DNA from: a virus
DNA length: 26,469 nt
Strand: one strand, 5' to 3'
Virus record (IMG/VR): IMGVR_UViG_3300020222_000151
Span: 1 to 26,469 of that record
Shown: positions 2,619-25,641 of the stretch, piece after piece
Layout of the letters: each line of letters begins with the position of its first letter
How positions within the stretch are numbered: position 1 is the first letter of the stretch
Notes under the pieces: model-generated
Told to the model about the DNA's origin: nothing
The model's input: the letters and a program-made list of their open reading frames with translations, nothing else
The model's database searches: none
Program-made: the position numbers and the translations under genes

Positions 2619-3827
2619 TTAAACCTTTAAATTAAGTTTTTTCATATTATAGAAATCTTTACCTGCTTTAATATTTACAGGAAATATTCCATATGGTGTT
2701 TCTTGAAGCGTTTTAGCAACATCAATAAGTAATTCTTTTTCCTCTTCTTTAACATCAAGAACAAATTCATCATGTATCATAAAAGCAATAAATGATTTTT
2801 TATTTTCTAATAAATCATCAACTTTGATGATTTGTCTATGAAATAAATCAATAAATGTAGATTGATTTAGATAAGAGATAGCATGATGATTGTCGCTTTC
2901 AATAATTCTATTATATGGAGTATGTACATAACCATCAATCCAATATTTATTTTTTAAATGTTCTTTAGAAAATAAAGCAGATAATTGATCATCGTATTTT
3001 TGTGTTAGCACGCTATTGCTGTTATACAACCACGATGTTGTTGTTTCTTTAGCCAAAGATCTATTTAATTCATTATTATAGATATTGCCGACAGTCCATT
3101 CATGAAAATCTCCTGCTGGCTGCTCTTTCCCTAGTAATGCCAAAGCAGTCCTTAATTCGGCTGCATTTATATCAAAACTTATAAACCAATCATTTGTTGG
3201 CTTTAATATATTTCTATATTGTTTTTCAAAGGTTAAAATAGGAAAACTATCTTTTTTAACTGTTAAGCGACCAGTGATGCTACCATACAAATTATAATTA
3301 ATATAATGACTGCCATTGACAATCTTTTTATAAAATCCCATAGCAGCATCTTTATATAGCTTGTTTTGTATTTCATTCGCATCAACGTTTAATTTACGGT
3401 ATTTAATGTCATTAATTATTTCAGTAAACCTTTTATAAAAAGCATACTCTTTTGGCTTTTCATAATTATCAAAAACATATTGACAAATTTTATTTTTTAT
3501 ATCGCAATATTGAATTAAAAACTTTTGTGGTGTCAAATCAAAAAAACAATTTTCTTTTAAAGAAACTTTTGATTCAACAAAAGAATTAATAAAAGCTTTC
3601 AATCTATTGTTGATATTTGTCCATTCTTCTTTTAGATGTTCTGGGCAGACAGAATCCAGAGATTTTCCTTCAACATATAAAGCAGCATAATCAATATCTT
3701 GGCCTTTTAAGAAAGAGCTGTAGTTCCATGTTTTTTTGAGGTTTGTGAAATCTAAATGATAATTTAATTTATTGTCAGCATATATCGCAACACATTCTTT
3801 TTTATCATCTAAAGTTTGAAATAGCAT
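2619..3827 (-). CDS. Miniature family A (Pol I-type) DNA polymerase, no exonuclease domain
   Basis: A 402-residue protein whose C-terminal half is a PolA polymerase domain. YGSITGRLTV (181-190) matches the T-TGRLS motif. Motif A is FISFDINAAELRTALALLG (215-233): D219 and E224 hold the spacing of E. coli D705/E710. Motif B is R256-x3-K260-x7-Y268, the spacing of R754/K758/Y766, but the F762 position is T and the following Gly is Asn. Motif C is FMIHDEFVLDV (349-359), with H352-D353. GKDFYNMKKL near the end matches the usual G-nW terminus. The 180-residue N-terminus shows no 3'-5' exonuclease motif that I can see. T7 polymerase is about 700 aa, so this is heavily reduced. T4-like phages replicate with family B gp43, so a second polymerase is unexpected. 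AGAGGA precedes ATG 3827, 7 nt after the stop of the 423-aa gene. Confidence 0.82.
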   Translation of the reverse strand: MLFQTLDDKKECVAIYADNKLNYHLDFTNLKKTWNYSSFLKGQDIDYAALYVEGKSLDSVCPEHLKEEWTNINNRLKAFINSFVESKVSLKENCFFDLTPQKFLIQYCDIKNKICQYVFDNYEKPKEYAFYKRFTEIINDIKYRKLNVDANEIQNKLYKDAAMGFYKKIVNGSHYINYNLYGSITGRLTVKKDSFPILTFEKQYRNILKPTNDWFISFDINAAELRTALALLGKEQPAGDFHEWTVGNIYNNELNRSLAKETTTSWLYNSNSVLTQKYDDQLSALFSKEHLKNKYWIDGYVHTPYNRIIESDNHHAISYLNQSTFIDLFHRQIIKVDDLLENKKSFIAFMIHDEFVLDVKEEEKELLIDVAKTLQETPYGIFPVNIKAGKDFYNMKKLNLKV

Positions 3828-16872: not shown

Positions 16873-16966
16873 TCTGAATTCTCCTTTTGGAGTCTACAAA
16901 AATTTGTAGCCTAATAACTTAATATAAATAGTAGTAGCGCTTTTGAAAATACTATAATTATTTCTT

Positions 16967-19989: not shown

Positions 19990-20330
19990 TTAAAGCTGAT
20001 ATAAGTAAATATTGCTTCCGCAGCCATATATCCTTTTAACATTAGATTCTTCAGCTATGTGTTTTTCTGATTTACCATTTTTTGCACGGTATTTAAATCG
20101 ATTATAACGTTGTTTTCCATTTGTATACCAATAATCAACATCGGTAGTACCAACAAATTGGAAATGATTCTTAGAATATACTTCTCCGGTTCCAAATCTC
20201 AAATCAGCATAGGTTAATATCTTGCCAAAGCCATTTTTCCATTAGCGAATTGCCTATTACAGATAAGACATTTGTTTAGGGCCGTTTCTTCTACTGGAAC
20301 TGCTATGTCTAAGTTGTTTTTATTTATCAT
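19990..20330 (-). pseudogene. Remnant of a homing-endonuclease-like gene
   Basis: Two fragments in different frames. From ATG 20330, a 38-codon frame ends at 20214 and contains LNKCLICNRQFANGK, a CxxC zinc-finger start. From about 20230 to 19990, another frame reads GFGKILTYADLRFGTGEVY, then DYWYTNGKQRYNRFKYRAK and KRIYGCGSNIYLYQL. That Y-D-R-G-vY...Y-Y...R--f-K...y-GCG order resembles the C-terminal domain of phage homing or restriction-like endonucleases (pattern from memory). One added base at the A5 run near 20237 would join the frames into about 113 residues. This is too short for a complete enzyme of that type, so an internal deletion is also likely. TTG 20202 could start a 70-aa product, but no good Shine-Dalgarno supports it. 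It lies between two head genes, a typical place for homing-gene invasion. Confidence 0.55.
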
Positions 20331-20464: not shown

Positions 20465-22246
20465 TTAACCTTCTAAGTCTTCTACAACTACGAGGCCGTA
20501 CATGTCTGGACGAACCATTGCCTTACCATAACGGGTCAAAACAGCCTTACGTGGTGAGAAGGTGTTTGGATCGAAGATGGTTGGTGTAGCTTGTAGTGGT
20601 ACGTATGGAGCATATACGTAACCGCTTTCCAAGAAGCTGCCGCCCTTACGACCGACAAGAATTACATTGCGGAGGAAGTATGGGTGAACAATTACGTCCC
20701 ACTTCTTGTTTAAATCACCAACCTTAACTGCACCTACGGAACCCTTTTCTGCATCGTTTGTTACAGATGCACGGAAGCCGCTGGTGAATTCAAGTACGTT
20801 AGCAACTTCTGGTGAGCAAACAAGGAAGTTTGCACCGCCGCGAAGTGTCTTACGGTGAATGAGGGCAGATACGTCATTGATTGTTTCAACTAATGTTTCG
20901 TACCACATTGATACGTTGCCAGTGAAATCTGGAGGAGCAGCATAACCAGCTGTTGCATCTTTCAAATCGGCACCTGTGTCGCGGTTTACGAACTTACCGG
21001 GGCGGCGGCTCCAATATTTAACACCACCAGTTGCACCCTTGACTAAATCGTTCAAGATTTCTTGATCAATTTCAAGACCGATTTGTTCAGACAACATGGA
21101 AGTTAACTCTACTTCTGCATCCAAATTATGATAAGCATTCAAGTCTTGACCTAATTCTGGAGTCCATTGAGCCTTTAACTTACGTGTGCGGGCTGTAATG
21201 GAGAAGCTGTCAACCTTCAATTCAATTTCTGGAATGTTTTGTGAACCTTCAAATGTCCAAGGAGTTGCACCTACTACTGCACCAAGAGCATTTGGACCTA
21301 CGTTACCAAGATTATCCTTGATTGGGTAGGAAACAGCTAATTTGCCTGTTGTTAACATTGTTGCCATACCAAGTGTATTGCTTGTGCTTACAACTACAAC
21401 GCGCAAATACTTTACGTTTGATACAGTGACTACTTCTGTTAAACGACGAACAATTCTGGAACCTGCACCAAGGGCAGTTGTACCAGTACGATCACCAGCA
21501 CCTTCTGTACCAGCAGCTGTACCAGCGTCTTCTTGTGCAAGAGAAAGGGCAAAGATATCTTTTTCAGCTAACAAGTTAGCCTTAGTTAAGCCAGCTAATG
21601 GAAGATCGAAAACGTTAGCATACAAGTCGCCATCATTAAGAATATCTGGATCCCAACGAACTAACTTCTTATCAGCATCAACGAAATCGCTAACCTTCTT
21701 ACCGTCTAGCTTTGTTACTAGTGTGCCACCGGCAACGATAGAATACCAACGAGAAGTATTGTAACCGTTAGCTAAATTGTAATAACCTTTTTCTGCGTGC
21801 TCAACGCCTTCTACACGAATACCACCAGTGATTTCAACACCCAAACGATCACCAAAGAAGGATGAAGAAGCGCCGAAGATGCTATCGCCTGTGTTACCAA
21901 CTTGTGTGCCACGGCGGAAATCCATGAAGAATACAAGACCGCTTGGCAAGCTCATTGGTTGTACAGATACAAGATCGTTAGCAATTAAGCCAGCAAATAC
22001 TCTGCGAACGATTGGGAAAGCTACGGAAGCAAAACCTTGAACATCACCTCCTGCCATTGTGGTTGCTTCGCGGAGTAATTCCTTAGCTTGGTTTTCTAAT
22101 AATACTGCCATTGTGCTGCGTTGACGGTCATCTTTCAAACCTTCTAAAAGACCAGAACCTTCCCACTTACCTACTAATGCTTTTGTTTCAGTTAACATGT
22201 TGCGTTCGACAGAACCTTCTGTCAAGCGTTCTAATACATTACTCAT
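20465..22246 (-). CDS. 23: Major capsid protein gp23
   Basis: A 593-residue HK97-fold capsid protein of the T4 type (T4 gp23 is 521 aa). The N-terminal region includes WEGSGLLEGLKDDRQRSTMAVLLENQAKELLREAT (28-62), then FPIVRRVFAGLIANDLVSVQPMSLPSGLVFFMDF (about 77-110), a hallmark gp23 block. Further on are RTRKLKAQWTPELGQDLNAYHNLDAEVELTSMLSEQIGLEIDQEIL (about 358-403) and the terminal YAPYVPLQATPTIFDP, LTRYGKAMVRPDMYGLVVVE. A gp21-type cleavage site (L/I-x-E) is present at L58-R59-E60/A61, near the T4 cleavage point, so removal of 60 residues is predicted. AAGGAGATATAAAATG gives a strong start. The scaffold gene lies upstream and a strong terminator follows. Confidence 0.95.
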   Translation of the reverse strand: MSNVLERLTEGSVERNMLTETKALVGKWEGSGLLEGLKDDRQRSTMAVLLENQAKELLREATTMAGGDVQGFASVAFPIVRRVFAGLIANDLVSVQPMSLPSGLVFFMDFRRGTQVGNTGDSIFGASSSFFGDRLGVEITGGIRVEGVEHAEKGYYNLANGYNTSRWYSIVAGGTLVTKLDGKKVSDFVDADKKLVRWDPDILNDGDLYANVFDLPLAGLTKANLLAEKDIFALSLAQEDAGTAAGTEGAGDRTGTTALGAGSRIVRRLTEVVTVSNVKYLRVVVVSTSNTLGMATMLTTGKLAVSYPIKDNLGNVGPNALGAVVGATPWTFEGSQNIPEIELKVDSFSITARTRKLKAQWTPELGQDLNAYHNLDAEVELTSMLSEQIGLEIDQEILNDLVKGATGGVKYWSRRPGKFVNRDTGADLKDATAGYAAPPDFTGNVSMWYETLVETINDVSALIHRKTLRGGANFLVCSPEVANVLEFTSGFRASVTNDAEKGSVGAVKVGDLNKKWDVIVHPYFLRNVILVGRKGGSFLESGYVYAPYVPLQATPTIFDPNTFSPRKAVLTRYGKAMVRPDMYGLVVVEDLEG

Positions 22247-22266: not shown

Positions 22267-23811
22267 TTATTTGTTTGTTTTAATGCCCGCTAGGGCTTTT
22301 AATCTTTCTGCCTGTAGGTCATTGACGCTATTTGCAGAAGATTTACGTACTACAAATGGCGTTGCCGCTCTATTAATTGCTTCGCGGAGAGTCTGAGGAG
22401 TTTCTTTTTCCTTAACAGTATTCTCTACCGCATTTTGAAGAGTTTCATAGATTGTCTTCGCCGCTAATACACTATCTGCTTTAGAAATAGATTCGACAAT
22501 TTGATTTTTTTGTCGCTCATTCAAGGAGATATTTCCTAGAGCCTTATTAGTGTATAAAAGTTTTGCGTTTAATAAATTAGAATCTTCTAATTGTGTTTTA
22601 AACTGTTCTAATGCAGAAAGTAATTTATTATTCATTACTTTCAAATCTTTATTTTCTTTTAATAAATCACCCATTGCTTCTTTTTCAGCTGCACGTTCTG
22701 CTGCTGCTTTAGAATCACGCGCTGCTGCCAATTCTAAATTACGTTGTTCACGCTTTTGAGTTTCTGTAGAACCCATATAACCGTCGCTTAAATTGCCAAT
22801 TTTTAGGTCAACGCGAAGTTCTTCCGCTAATTCCTCTAATTCTTCTTCAGTTAATTGAACTGTTTCTTTCACGCCTTGAGCGGCGGCGGCATTTGCGCCT
22901 GCGGCAATTTTTTCTTCTGCTTTACCAACTAATTTTTCTAATTCAGCTATTCTATTATTGATGTTAATTATTTCTTGTTCGTTATTTTGTGTTTGAGCAA
23001 TATTTAATTTAGTTTTTAAGGCAGAAATTTCTCCCTGTATGCGTGCCTTATCTGCATTACCAGTTTGTTGTGTAACGTTACTAGGAGCTGGAGTGGTGTT
23101 AACAGCGGGGGCTTCTGGTGCTGGCGCGTCAGCTTCTTCCAATTCCCACTCTAATTCTTGTTCTTCGTCACCAATAACAACATTAATACCACCTAAATCT
23201 TCATCGTCGCCTTCTAATTCGCTTGTAGCAAGGACAGCTGTATGTTCTTCGCCAGAAGGTTCGGCTGCTGTTTCTTCCGCAGCAGATAACTCAATTTCTT
23301 CTTCATGCTCAGGAGCATCTTCAAATTCTTCTTCCACTACAGCGGCATCTGCTGCACCGGCTCCAAGAGCGTCATTAGTAGAATCTTGCAATAAACCAGT
23401 ATCATAACGTTCACCCAACATTTCATTTAGGGTAGCACGAATTTGATCAAAGTTAATTGTCACCATTTGATCTTCTGAAACGTCGGAAAAAGAACCCGGA
23501 ACTTTGGAAAAAGCGTCTTTTCCGCCTGTACCGTCTAAAGACATATCAGGTACAGCTGCCATAGGATCTGCCATTAATGGATCTGCTACAGGCTGTTGTG
23601 CTGGTTGAGCATTTGGGTCAGCAGCAGGAGATGCAGCTTGTTGAGCGTTTGGATCTACAGGAGCTACTTCTTCCTGTTCTAATAGTCTTTGAACAGTTTG
23701 ATTAAATTCTTGACTGTATTTTTCAATCAATGCATTTTCTGCATTTTTAATTGCAACTTCTTTTAATGCAGCGGCATCAATAATTGCTTGTTCTAATAAT
23801 TCAGATGACAT
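22267..23811 (-). CDS. 22: Prohead core / scaffold protein, gp22 equivalent
   Basis: A 514-residue, acidic, low-complexity and helical protein immediately upstream of gp23, the gp22 position. Residues 1-50 are helical. Residues 50-85 are Ala/Pro/Gln-rich (DPNAQQAASPAADPNAQP). Residues 160-235 are very acidic (EEEFEDAPEHEEEIEL, EGDDEDLGG). Residues 255-430 form coiled coil (RIQGEISALKTKLNIAQTQN, TEEELEELAEELRVDLK, LLKENKDLKVMNNKLL). A conserved-looking end has NKALGNISLNERQKNQIVES and AERLKALAGIKTNK. T4 gp22 is only 269 aa, so this is an enlarged version. The core is expected to be digested by gp21 during maturation. GGAG precedes the ATG, and a late-promoter-like box with palindrome lies 22-45 nt upstream. 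Confidence 0.82.
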   Translation of the reverse strand: MSSELLEQAIIDAAALKEVAIKNAENALIEKYSQEFNQTVQRLLEQEEVAPVDPNAQQAASPAADPNAQPAQQPVADPLMADPMAAVPDMSLDGTGGKDAFSKVPGSFSDVSEDQMVTINFDQIRATLNEMLGERYDTGLLQDSTNDALGAGAADAAVVEEEFEDAPEHEEEIELSAAEETAAEPSGEEHTAVLATSELEGDDEDLGGINVVIGDEEQELEWELEEADAPAPEAPAVNTTPAPSNVTQQTGNADKARIQGEISALKTKLNIAQTQNNEQEIININNRIAELEKLVGKAEEKIAAGANAAAAQGVKETVQLTEEELEELAEELRVDLKIGNLSDGYMGSTETQKREQRNLELAAARDSKAAAERAAEKEAMGDLLKENKDLKVMNNKLLSALEQFKTQLEDSNLLNAKLLYTNKALGNISLNERQKNQIVESISKADSVLAAKTIYETLQNAVENTVKEKETPQTLREAINRAATPFVVRKSSANSVNDLQAERLKALAGIKTNK

Positions 23812-23832
23812 TAATAATCTCCTGTAAGCAGG

Positions 23833-23856
23833 AAAAAGTAGTACTTTTTATTTAAA
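23833..23856 (-). promoter_or_regulatory. Candidate late promoter/operator upstream of the scaffold gene
   Basis: On the minus strand TTTAAATA (23856-23849) resembles T4 late box TATAAATA and lies 38 nt before the ATG. It is followed by a perfect 17-bp palindrome AAAAAGTA-C-TACTTTTT (23849-23833). A shorter version of the same box plus palindrome precedes gp26. Confidence 0.4.
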
Positions 23857-23882
23857 TAGTATTATTTGATCCAAAATGACAA

Positions 23883-24191
23883 TTATTGTGCTGTTTCTGC
23901 ACGTTTAGCCACTTTTTTCTTTTTCTTTTTTGGCGTTTCGTTGTTAATTTCAGCTAACATATCTAAATTAGCTTTTTGTGCGCTGCGTTTATATTTTAAT
24001 TGTCGTTGACGTTCAAGCACACTTGGTTTGTCAAAACGCTTTGTATAAGAAGAATAATCATATAAATATTGTACAAGAGATTCTTTACTGCACGCTTTTA
24101 AAAATCGATTAATCAATAATTCATTATTTTCTAATGAAGGTTGTAATCCTTTTGGTAATCTTGTTTCTAAATTAATAGGACGCTTACTCAT
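23883..24191 (-). CDS. Phage-encoded bS21-like ribosomal protein
   Basis: A 102-residue basic protein. Residues 18-75 follow the bacterial ribosomal protein S21 pattern: ENNELLINRFLKACSKESLV (21-40), where bS21 has ENE---ALRRFKR-CEK-GVL. Next is SYTKRFDKPSVLERQRQLKYKRSAQKAN (48-75), where bS21 has EFYEKP---RKRK---A-KR. The C-terminal extension has a run of six lysines (88-93) and looks like an rRNA- or DNA-binding tail. bS21 sits by the anti-Shine-Dalgarno of 16S rRNA and aids initiation; phage copies are known and are thought to bias host ribosomes. It lies between two head genes, so late expression is expected. The start is 3 nt after the upstream stop. The family call is good; function in infection is inferred. 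Confidence 0.75.
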   Translation of the reverse strand: MSKRPINLETRLPKGLQPSLENNELLINRFLKACSKESLVQYLYDYSSYTKRFDKPSVLERQRQLKYKRSAQKANLDMLAEINNETPKKKKKKVAKRAETAQ

Positions 24192-24194
24192 ACT

Positions 24195-24578
24195 TTACTC
24201 TTTTGCTTTCTTGCCATTAATGGCATTGTTAGTTAATTTAAGTTTGTTGCTCATTAGCCTACTAATATCGACTCCACGATCTGAACTGTTTAAACCGGTA
24301 ACAGGAAAAGAAGATTCAGATACATCACCAGCTTCAGTTATTGGAGTAGAGCCAGAAAAAGGATCAAAACCAGTATTACCTATTGAATCAAGCATTTTCT
24401 TTCTAGCTTCTGATAAATTAGCTTTTTGTTGTGGGGGTTGTTTTTTAACAGGCATAGTTTCTGTAACCGCATGACGAGATTCAGAAACCATTTTAGTAAA
24501 ACCTTCTTCTATAAGAACTTCTTTTAGGCATTCTTTAATTAATGGTTTTATTAAATTTTTTAGCTCTTGCTTATTCAT
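24195..24578 (-). CDS. Small head-region protein, unknown
   Basis: A 127-residue protein. An N-terminal amphipathic helix (KQELKNLIKPLIKECLKEVLIEEGF, about 3-27) is followed by a disordered, Ser/Pro/Lys-rich part. A short order-promoting segment KKMLDSIGNTGFDPFSGSTPI (about 60-80) and the basic end SNKLKLTNNAINGKKAKE follow. The LK-LIKPL-KEC-KEV-EEG helix recurs, in my memory, in small structural proteins of large myophages, but I cannot name a function. GAGGATTT precedes ATG 24578. An AATAAATA box (24614-24621 minus) lies 36 nt upstream and may be a late promoter. Context suggests a core or head-assembly protein. Confidence 0.6.
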   Translation of the reverse strand: MNKQELKNLIKPLIKECLKEVLIEEGFTKMVSESRHAVTETMPVKKQPPQQKANLSEARKKMLDSIGNTGFDPFSGSTPITEAGDVSESSFPVTGLNSSDRGVDISRLMSNKLKLTNNAINGKKAKE

Positions 24579-24629: not shown

Positions 24630-25025
24630 TTATCCTATGCCTAAACTACCAGAATATGTAGAGGCTAAATCATAGCCAACAATTCCAGTTAATCCAGCAG
24701 CTACGCTAACATTAGGAATTGCAGCAGCATTAGACAACAAAAACAATTTAGTAGCACGCACTTCCAGAGTTAATGTAGCTTGTGGATTAACTAAAACGTA
24801 ATTGGTGCTTTTAATTCCGTTTTCACTGAATCCAACTCTTAATTGCGGTCCTCCAATAGTTGAAGGATTATTGACACTAATAAATTTAGTTACATTAGGA
24901 AAATCAATTGAAATAGGTGTTCCTGAGCTAGTTGGTGCAGTTAATGAGCCGGTTACAAAAGGTAGACCACTAATTTGATAAGATCCTACATGATTTAATC
25001 CTGCTTTATATTGAAAATCAGCCAT
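24630..25025 (-). CDS. Probable virion / capsid decoration protein
   Basis: A 131-residue beta-rich protein with no cysteine and few charges. MADFQYKAGLNHVGSYQISG (1-20), FPNVTKFISVNNPST (42-56), LRVGFSENGIKSTNYVLVNP (62-81), TLTLEVRATKLFLLSN (84-99) and a Gly/Ala/Ser-rich end (LTGIVGYDLASTYSGSLGIG) suggest a compact beta-sandwich. It sits between the prohead protease and scaffold cluster and has a good Shine-Dalgarno (AAAGGAATAATAAA before ATG 25025), consistent with an abundant head protein. I recall similar proteins labelled virion structural in T4-like phages, but no domain can be named. Capsid decoration is the likeliest role. Confidence 0.6.
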   Translation of the reverse strand: MADFQYKAGLNHVGSYQISGLPFVTGSLTAPTSSGTPISIDFPNVTKFISVNNPSTIGGPQLRVGFSENGIKSTNYVLVNPQATLTLEVRATKLFLLSNAAAIPNVSVAAGLTGIVGYDLASTYSGSLGIG

Positions 25026-25029
25026 TTTA

Positions 25030-25641
25030 TTATTCCTTTACTATATCATTTAGTAATCTATTTAGACGATCAGCTTTAGTCCAAATTTTCTTTGGATCTA
25101 AAGTACGCTTCTTGTTTTCTGTCATCATAAATGCACCGGGAGTGCTAGGTTCTTGTACGAAATCAAAACAAATAAGTTGATAATCGTCATCTACCATAGT
25201 TCTACCATTAGCCTTAAAAGTGCTTCCCAAACCACGACTTGAAATACCTAATTTAACACCACTCTCTATTAATGATTGTAGAATTTTACCTGATGGTGTG
25301 TTTAAAATACGAACTTTGCCCATTACATTATTGCCATCCCACCAAACACGGGTAACAATGTGGGAAACATTCTTTAAGTTGATTACGGAATCTTCTGGGT
25401 GGTCTAATTCACCTAGTGCTCTACGGTCATCAACTAACTTTTGATAATTACGAATTTCACGTTCAAGAATTCTTTTGCTATATATTCTGCCGTTACCATT
25501 TAATTCATCACATTTTTGCATAACGCCACTAAGCATTACGCCACCTTCTTGAATAAAGCGCTTATCTTCTTCTGTAAGTAAATCCTTACAAATTCCGCCT
25601 TCACAAAGTTCAAAAAATTCTCTTAATAGTTCTTTACTCAT
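25030..25641 (-). CDS. 21: Prohead core protease gp21
   Basis: A 203-residue serine protease of the T4 gp21 type, which digests the prohead core and trims capsid proteins at L/I-x-E sites. The motifs are in order: NGNGRIYSKRIL (48-59), the N-NGR-Y signature of phage maturation proteases; GELDHPED (77-84) with catalytic H81; and LGISSRGLGS (131-140) with the nucleophile S134 or S135. DDYQLICFDFVQEPSTPGAF (about 151-170) is the usual DFV--PS-PGA strand. The length matches T4 gp21 (212 aa). The start overlaps the ParB-like gene by 8 nt. A weak AGG lies 12 nt before the ATG. The downstream scaffold and gp23 are its expected substrates. Confidence 0.93.
   Translation of the reverse strand: MSKELLREFFELCEGGICKDLLTEEDKRFIQEGGVMLSGVMQKCDELNGNGRIYSKRILEREIRNYQKLVDDRRALGELDHPEDSVINLKNVSHIVTRVWWDGNNVMGKVRILNTPSGKILQSLIESGVKLGISSRGLGSTFKANGRTMVDDDYQLICFDFVQEPSTPGAFMMTENKKRTLDPKKIWTKADRLNRLLNDIVKE

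Follow-up and report, generated by a model that had tools for sequence, protein, structure and literature searches.

A protein of 102 amino acids encoded among the head genes of a phage (IMG/VR record IMGVR_UViG_3300020222_000151; the 26,469 nucleotides analysed are referred to as the window) is, as judged from profile-profile comparison, synteny and a capsid tree, a relative by descent of the ribosomal protein bS21. It is proposed to represent a phage bS21 that has been remodelled in a single clade of far-T4 phages, that would be made together with the head proteins, and that would enter host 30S subunits, a reading which we favour with little more than even confidence. No earlier description was found, in the literature consulted, of a single-origin, remodelled and Pfam-invisible bS21 family at a head locus, nor of the contrast in Shine-Dalgarno (SD) use and strand between groups of phage bS21.

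The head-gene locus and its expression

The open reading frame (ORF) has exactly the coordinates given in the first-pass annotation, and the bS21-like motif claimed for it is present (NELLINRFLKACSK ... YTKRFDKPSVLERQRQLKYKR, followed by a lysine-rich tail). Its placement among head genes was likewise confirmed, as it is flanked by the scaffold gene and a small head-region gene on the same strand. The block and the elements in its bS21-like/scaffold intergenic region are, in the order of transcription of the genes:

25030-25641, minus strand: gp21-like prohead protease (Pfam PF03420, E 2.9e-31)
24630-25025, minus strand: small gene
24195-24578, minus strand: small head-region gene, upstream of the bS21-like gene
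23883-24191, minus strand: bS21-derived gene, 102 amino acids (family alignments, profile-profile comparison, purifying selection)
22267-23811, minus strand: gp22-like prohead scaffold, 514 amino acids (position, profile homology)
20465-22246, minus strand: gp23-like major capsid protein (Pfam PF07068, E 1.2e-70)
23812-23882, minus strand: intergenic region with the conserved element TTGTCATTT-N9-TAATACTA(A/T)TTAA...
23853-23860, minus strand: promoter-like motif ACTATTTA, enriched upstream of genes of the clade
23820-23833, minus strand: hairpin UCCUG-CUUA-CAGGA holding the scaffold SD, conserved as UCCUG-NNNN-CAGGA

The scaffold of the window is homologous to those of Microcystis phage Mel-JY01, Flavobacterium phage immuto and LR756508, as detected with a profile built from these three. 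The bS21-like ORF is under purifying selection (dN/dS of about 0.11-0.19 versus near relatives). Its product shows 52-85% identity among relatives, mostly more than the scaffold does and, the most distant relatives apart, about as much as the capsid protein. The product of the 24195-24578 gene starts with MNKQELKNLIKPLIKECLKEVLIEE, which resembles a capsid-targeting amphipathic helix; other proteins of these phages have N-termini of this kind, as does Mel-JY01 WWT39310, which is encoded at the same position, and this recurrence suggests that the proteins concerned may be packaged in the head.

The bS21-like gene itself has no SD, and the stop codon of the upstream gene lies 3 nucleotides before its ATG (TAA-AGT-ATG), a spacing that is kept in the relatives inspected; on account of both features, translational coupling to the 24195-24578 gene is likely. 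Late expression together with the structural proteins, as had been proposed for the gene, can fairly be inferred from its position, strand and this coupling, but co-transcription with the scaffold and capsid genes is not assured, because ACTATTTA sits between the bS21-like gene and the scaffold, 49 nucleotides before the scaffold start, and the former may therefore be carried on a different transcript from the scaffold and capsid. In three large relatives (G003, G004 and G011) this motif was encountered 19 times upstream of genes versus 0.9 expected, and ACTATTTA(T), which differs from the T4 late TATAAATA, probably serves as a promoter element. Occurrences of ACTATTTA(T) in the window are found at 16932, 19961, 20386 and 23860 on the minus strand, in intergenic positions upstream of genes. 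The TTGTCATTT-N9-TAATACTA element occurs just once in the window and just once per genome in three large relatives. The hairpin over the scaffold SD displayed no compensatory changes among the relatives and had no match in Rfam.

The earlier remark that several late genes lack a clear SD was half right, in that it holds for the bS21-like gene, but strong SDs precede the capsid, scaffold, sheath and tube genes. An SD-like motif was found for 50% of the ORFs in the window versus 10% in shuffled sequences, and for 43-61% versus 10-16% across the window, G011, G004 and L003/12/13, and the host of the window phage is probably an SD user. No SD signal was detected in phage immuto, which is bS21-less at this locus. 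Much stronger SDs for late genes than for other genes were considered, but the difference is only slight (mean -4.4 versus -3.8, p 0.04), and the fraction of strong SDs is equal. A Bacteroidota host is disfavoured by the strong SD use, with immuto as the SD-less control. Host assignment through a GDP-mannose dehydratase-like gene of a 174-kb relative was dropped, as its matches were scattered over phyla at about 45-55% identity, and the tRNAs examined gave no clue to the host.

Descent from bS21 and history of the locus

In direct searches the protein was not recognised as a bS21. The PF01165 profile, proposed at first pass as a check, did not match it even at E 5, and on that test alone the bS21 claim would have been dropped; neither was there a PF01165 match anywhere in the records of the 11 relatives first fetched, 3 of which exceed 100 kb. 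Searches with hmmscan against Pfam, PHROGs and NCBIfam did not find bS21, and the protein matched no Pfam or PHROG family at all, although the T4 gp67/gp68-type core families are too divergent for their absence to exclude them. Moreover, PDB sequences searched with phmmer and with a profile yielded no bS21 and nothing relevant, and Foldseek gave no significant match for two AlphaFold models, with neither search of the window-type model finding bS21.

The homology was borne out by profile-profile comparison against shuffles, by synteny and by the capsid tree. Relatives were found in IMG/VR contigs, giving a window-type family of 16 members, and relatives of the capsid protein were fetched independently of the bS21-like gene. 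Alignment of the 16-member family by hhalign gave 96.9%, E 2e-10 and a score of 57.6 with syntenic canonical phage bS21, and 72%, E 3.4e-5 and a score of 31.9 with cellular bS21 from bacterial genomes, versus top scores of 14.7 (phage set) and 16.0 (cellular set) in 40 column-shuffles. An iterative profile started from the window family reached the canonical genes via L083, L066 and others, graded intermediates between window-type and canonical bS21 are provided by L020, L021, L083, L075 and L058, and the N-terminal MSKRPVN is common to the window family, L058 and L075. The helices predicted by AlphaFold (residues 20-36, 39-46, 48-52 and 56-79) fall at bS21 positions. The top six rows obtained with VIA-align are small-subunit ribosome chains, with E. 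coli bS21 in the first row and human mitochondrial bS21 also among the top chains, all at a Z of 4.1 or less, a likeness that is weak and partly built in because the input alignment of the model included canonical bS21.

Canonical bS21 genes lie between protease and scaffold in Mel-JY01 (Pfam E 8e-12), in the 484-kb LR756508 (3.5e-10) and in IMG/VR relatives fetched through their capsid proteins. Among whole records, 24 of 50 contain a bS21 Pfam match at E up to 0.1, and 20 pass the cut-off. Where protease and capsid were both recognised, the gene was present in 22 loci, in every case co-directional and placed between protease and scaffold, and phage immuto was the sole locus without it (1); since 10 of these 22 loci are the window or were fetched via the bS21-like protein, the less biased count is 12 with versus 1 without. 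In the capsid-protein tree the window-type proteins form one derived clade (100/100) that lies within the phages carrying a canonical bS21. The simplest history would be that an inherited bS21 was remodelled once, with no fresh capture.

Remodelling and comparison with known systems

The segments that distinguish or anchor the window protein in the alignments are:

24042-24053, minus strand: insertion of 4 residues (S47-T50) at the junction of helix 2 and the KPS kink (joint alignment, hhalign gap)
24021-24029, minus strand: KPS motif (K55-S57), the bS21 kink (joint alignment)
23913-23930, minus strand: lysine-rich tail (K88-K93), differing in length between family members (alignments)

Residues F30, K32, C34, K36, KPS and R61 are kept in the window family, and the protein thus has the helix 1 aromatic and basic residues (F30, K32, K36) and the K55-P56-S57 kink of bS21; the KPS lysine is conserved in cellular and canonical phage proteins and in 15 of the 16 window-type proteins. 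The basic residues of helix 2 are replaced, with Y44 and Y46 in the R33 and R35 columns of the window protein. Almost all of the 16 family members have lost both arginines, the R35 column being occupied by Y, N or K (Lys is kept in 2 of 16), versus R35 in 16 out of 16 aligned cellular bS21 and an invariably basic residue at position 33. The S47-T50 insertion is Tyr-rich, follows helix 2 and amounts to about one helical turn; it is absent from cellular bS21 and nearly so from canonical phage bS21, two of which have one residue there. Compared with bS21 from cells and with the canonical phage proteins, the family has a further insert, at the N-terminus, which contains LPKGxxP. The Tyr54 column holds R69 rather than an aromatic residue in the window protein, with a conserved Tyr67 two residues earlier. 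Because it falls outside the Pfam cut-off and lacks the conserved R33 and R35, the protein is not filed as a functional bS21, but it may still work like one.

With cellular bS21 (rpsU) the window protein shares three helical segments, F/Y in helix 1, the KPS kink and a basic C-terminal helix, and it differs in the loss of R33 and R35, the helix insert, the N-terminal insert and the lysine tail. Canonical phage bS21 (Mel-JY01 WWT39311, huge phage LR756508, IMG/VR loci L058-L097) are homologous to it and occupy the same protease/scaffold slot on the same strand, but they match PF01165, are free of the 4-residue and LPKGxxP inserts, and have R or K at position 33 and mostly at 35. For Pelagibacter phage HTVC008M, the phage-encoded bS21 was shown in E. 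coli ribosomes, where it strongly lowers in vitro translation (Mizuno et al. 2019, PMC6375957); it likewise comes from a large myovirus, but is close to the host protein, whereas the window protein has diverged much further.

Linkage of phage bS21 to structural genes has already been described for freshwater Bacteroidetes phages (Chen et al. 2022, PMC9723584), in which, as in the window, bS21 adjoins protease, portal and capsid genes, related loci having gp23/gp22/gp21-type neighbours. According to the published late-stage model, the phage bS21 acts as a mimic of the anti-SD-hiding protein of Bacteroidetes (PMC9723584, PMC9976891). In those phages bS21 lies on the opposite strand and is aromatic at Tyr54, whereas in the window and its syntenic relatives it is co-directional, with R69 in the remodelled protein of the window. 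Loci of the Bacteroidetes type (L197-L216), recovered by a search with Flavobacterium johnsoniae bS21, combine a capsid locus of related gp23 type with an opposite-strand bS21 that has, by inspection, an aromatic residue or His at the Tyr54 position; over 151 ORFs they have no SD signal, unlike phages of that capsid superfamily whose bS21 is co-directional. SDs, which were not a criterion in Chen et al. 2022, are thus absent from the Bacteroidetes-type loci and used by the window phage. The anti-SD-hiding model does not transfer to the window phage, because the window family is co-directional, is without a Tyr54-type residue and uses SDs.

Proposed function and alternative explanations

Under the favoured reading, bS21 would have been inherited inside the head-gene block of the gp23-type (far-T4) lineage and strongly remodelled in one clade; co-directional reading and coupling would let the protein appear as capsid parts are made, and it would most likely take the bS21 site on the host 30S subunit, beside the anti-SD. 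Initiation in an SD-using host would thereby be altered in favour of messages with strong SDs, namely those for capsid, scaffold, sheath and tube. This ribosomal reading is supported by the shuffle-controlled homology, the synteny, the single clade and the purifying selection, and by the fact that the records of the 11 relatives hold no other PF01165 match. It also draws support from SD use in the clade, unlike immuto and the Tyr54-type phages, from the entry of a canonical phage bS21 into E. coli ribosomes (PMC6375957), and from helices at bS21 positions with ribosomal top alignments, albeit at low Z. Counting against it, no library recognises the protein as bS21 and late SDs are only slightly stronger, and exchange into host ribosomes in particular is made less likely by the Tyr-rich insert, which changes the helix, and by the absence of R33 and R35.

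Since these two conserved arginines are lost, exaptation has to be taken seriously as a rival, although we regard it as distinctly less probable: the bS21-derived protein would have left the ribosome and now serve, as a small basic protein, in RNA binding or head assembly, for instance as a regulator of scaffold translation or an organiser of the prohead core. The arginine loss, both inserts and the lysine tail are fixed or nearly so in one clade, and the gene lies directly upstream of the scaffold, followed by the single-copy conserved element and the hairpin over the scaffold SD. However, the core bS21 signature (F30, K32, K36, KPS, R61) is kept under selection, the hairpin is without compensatory changes, and position alone ties the protein to capsids. 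Packaging of the bS21 variant in the head, with injection alongside the DNA and an effect on host ribosomes that would begin in the first minutes instead of late, appears improbable; such a possibility was raised by Chen et al. 2022 (PMC9723584) and the gene does lie among prohead-core genes, but the protein is without a capsid-targeting-type amphipathic N-terminal helix, unlike the product of its upstream neighbour, and by eye no conserved protease-like site is present in the family. That the protein is an unrelated basic head protein with a convergent likeness to bS21 would agree with the failure of family libraries, and of Foldseek with the window-type model, to find bS21, but is very improbable given profile-profile scores far above the shuffles, synteny with true bS21, the graded intermediates and the shared MSKRPVN.

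Surveys of phage ribosomal proteins that are based on Pfam will miss the window family, and the reach of phage bS21 is therefore probably underestimated. Across related phages, the head-gene locus holds a canonical bS21, a remodelled one, an opposite-strand Tyr54-type one, or none, and SDs are used with the canonical and remodelled forms and unused in the Tyr54-type loci and in one bS21-less isolate; the effect of bS21 on initiation is thus testable by comparing natural variants. Should exaptation hold, which is possible but doubtful, the bS21 of one clade would have left the ribosome to become an assembly or translation-control factor, and the successive steps could be followed in intermediates that still live at this locus.

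Elsewhere in the window, a short ORF just after the capsid gene (19990-20202, minus strand) matches the C-terminus of homing/HNH endonuclease families (PHROG E 2.4e-9) and is probably an endonuclease remnant. Finally, a 402-amino-acid ORF (2619-3827, minus strand) resembles, by eye, the C-terminal half of a family A DNA polymerase, and the first gene of phage immuto is a polymerase A fragment of similar size.
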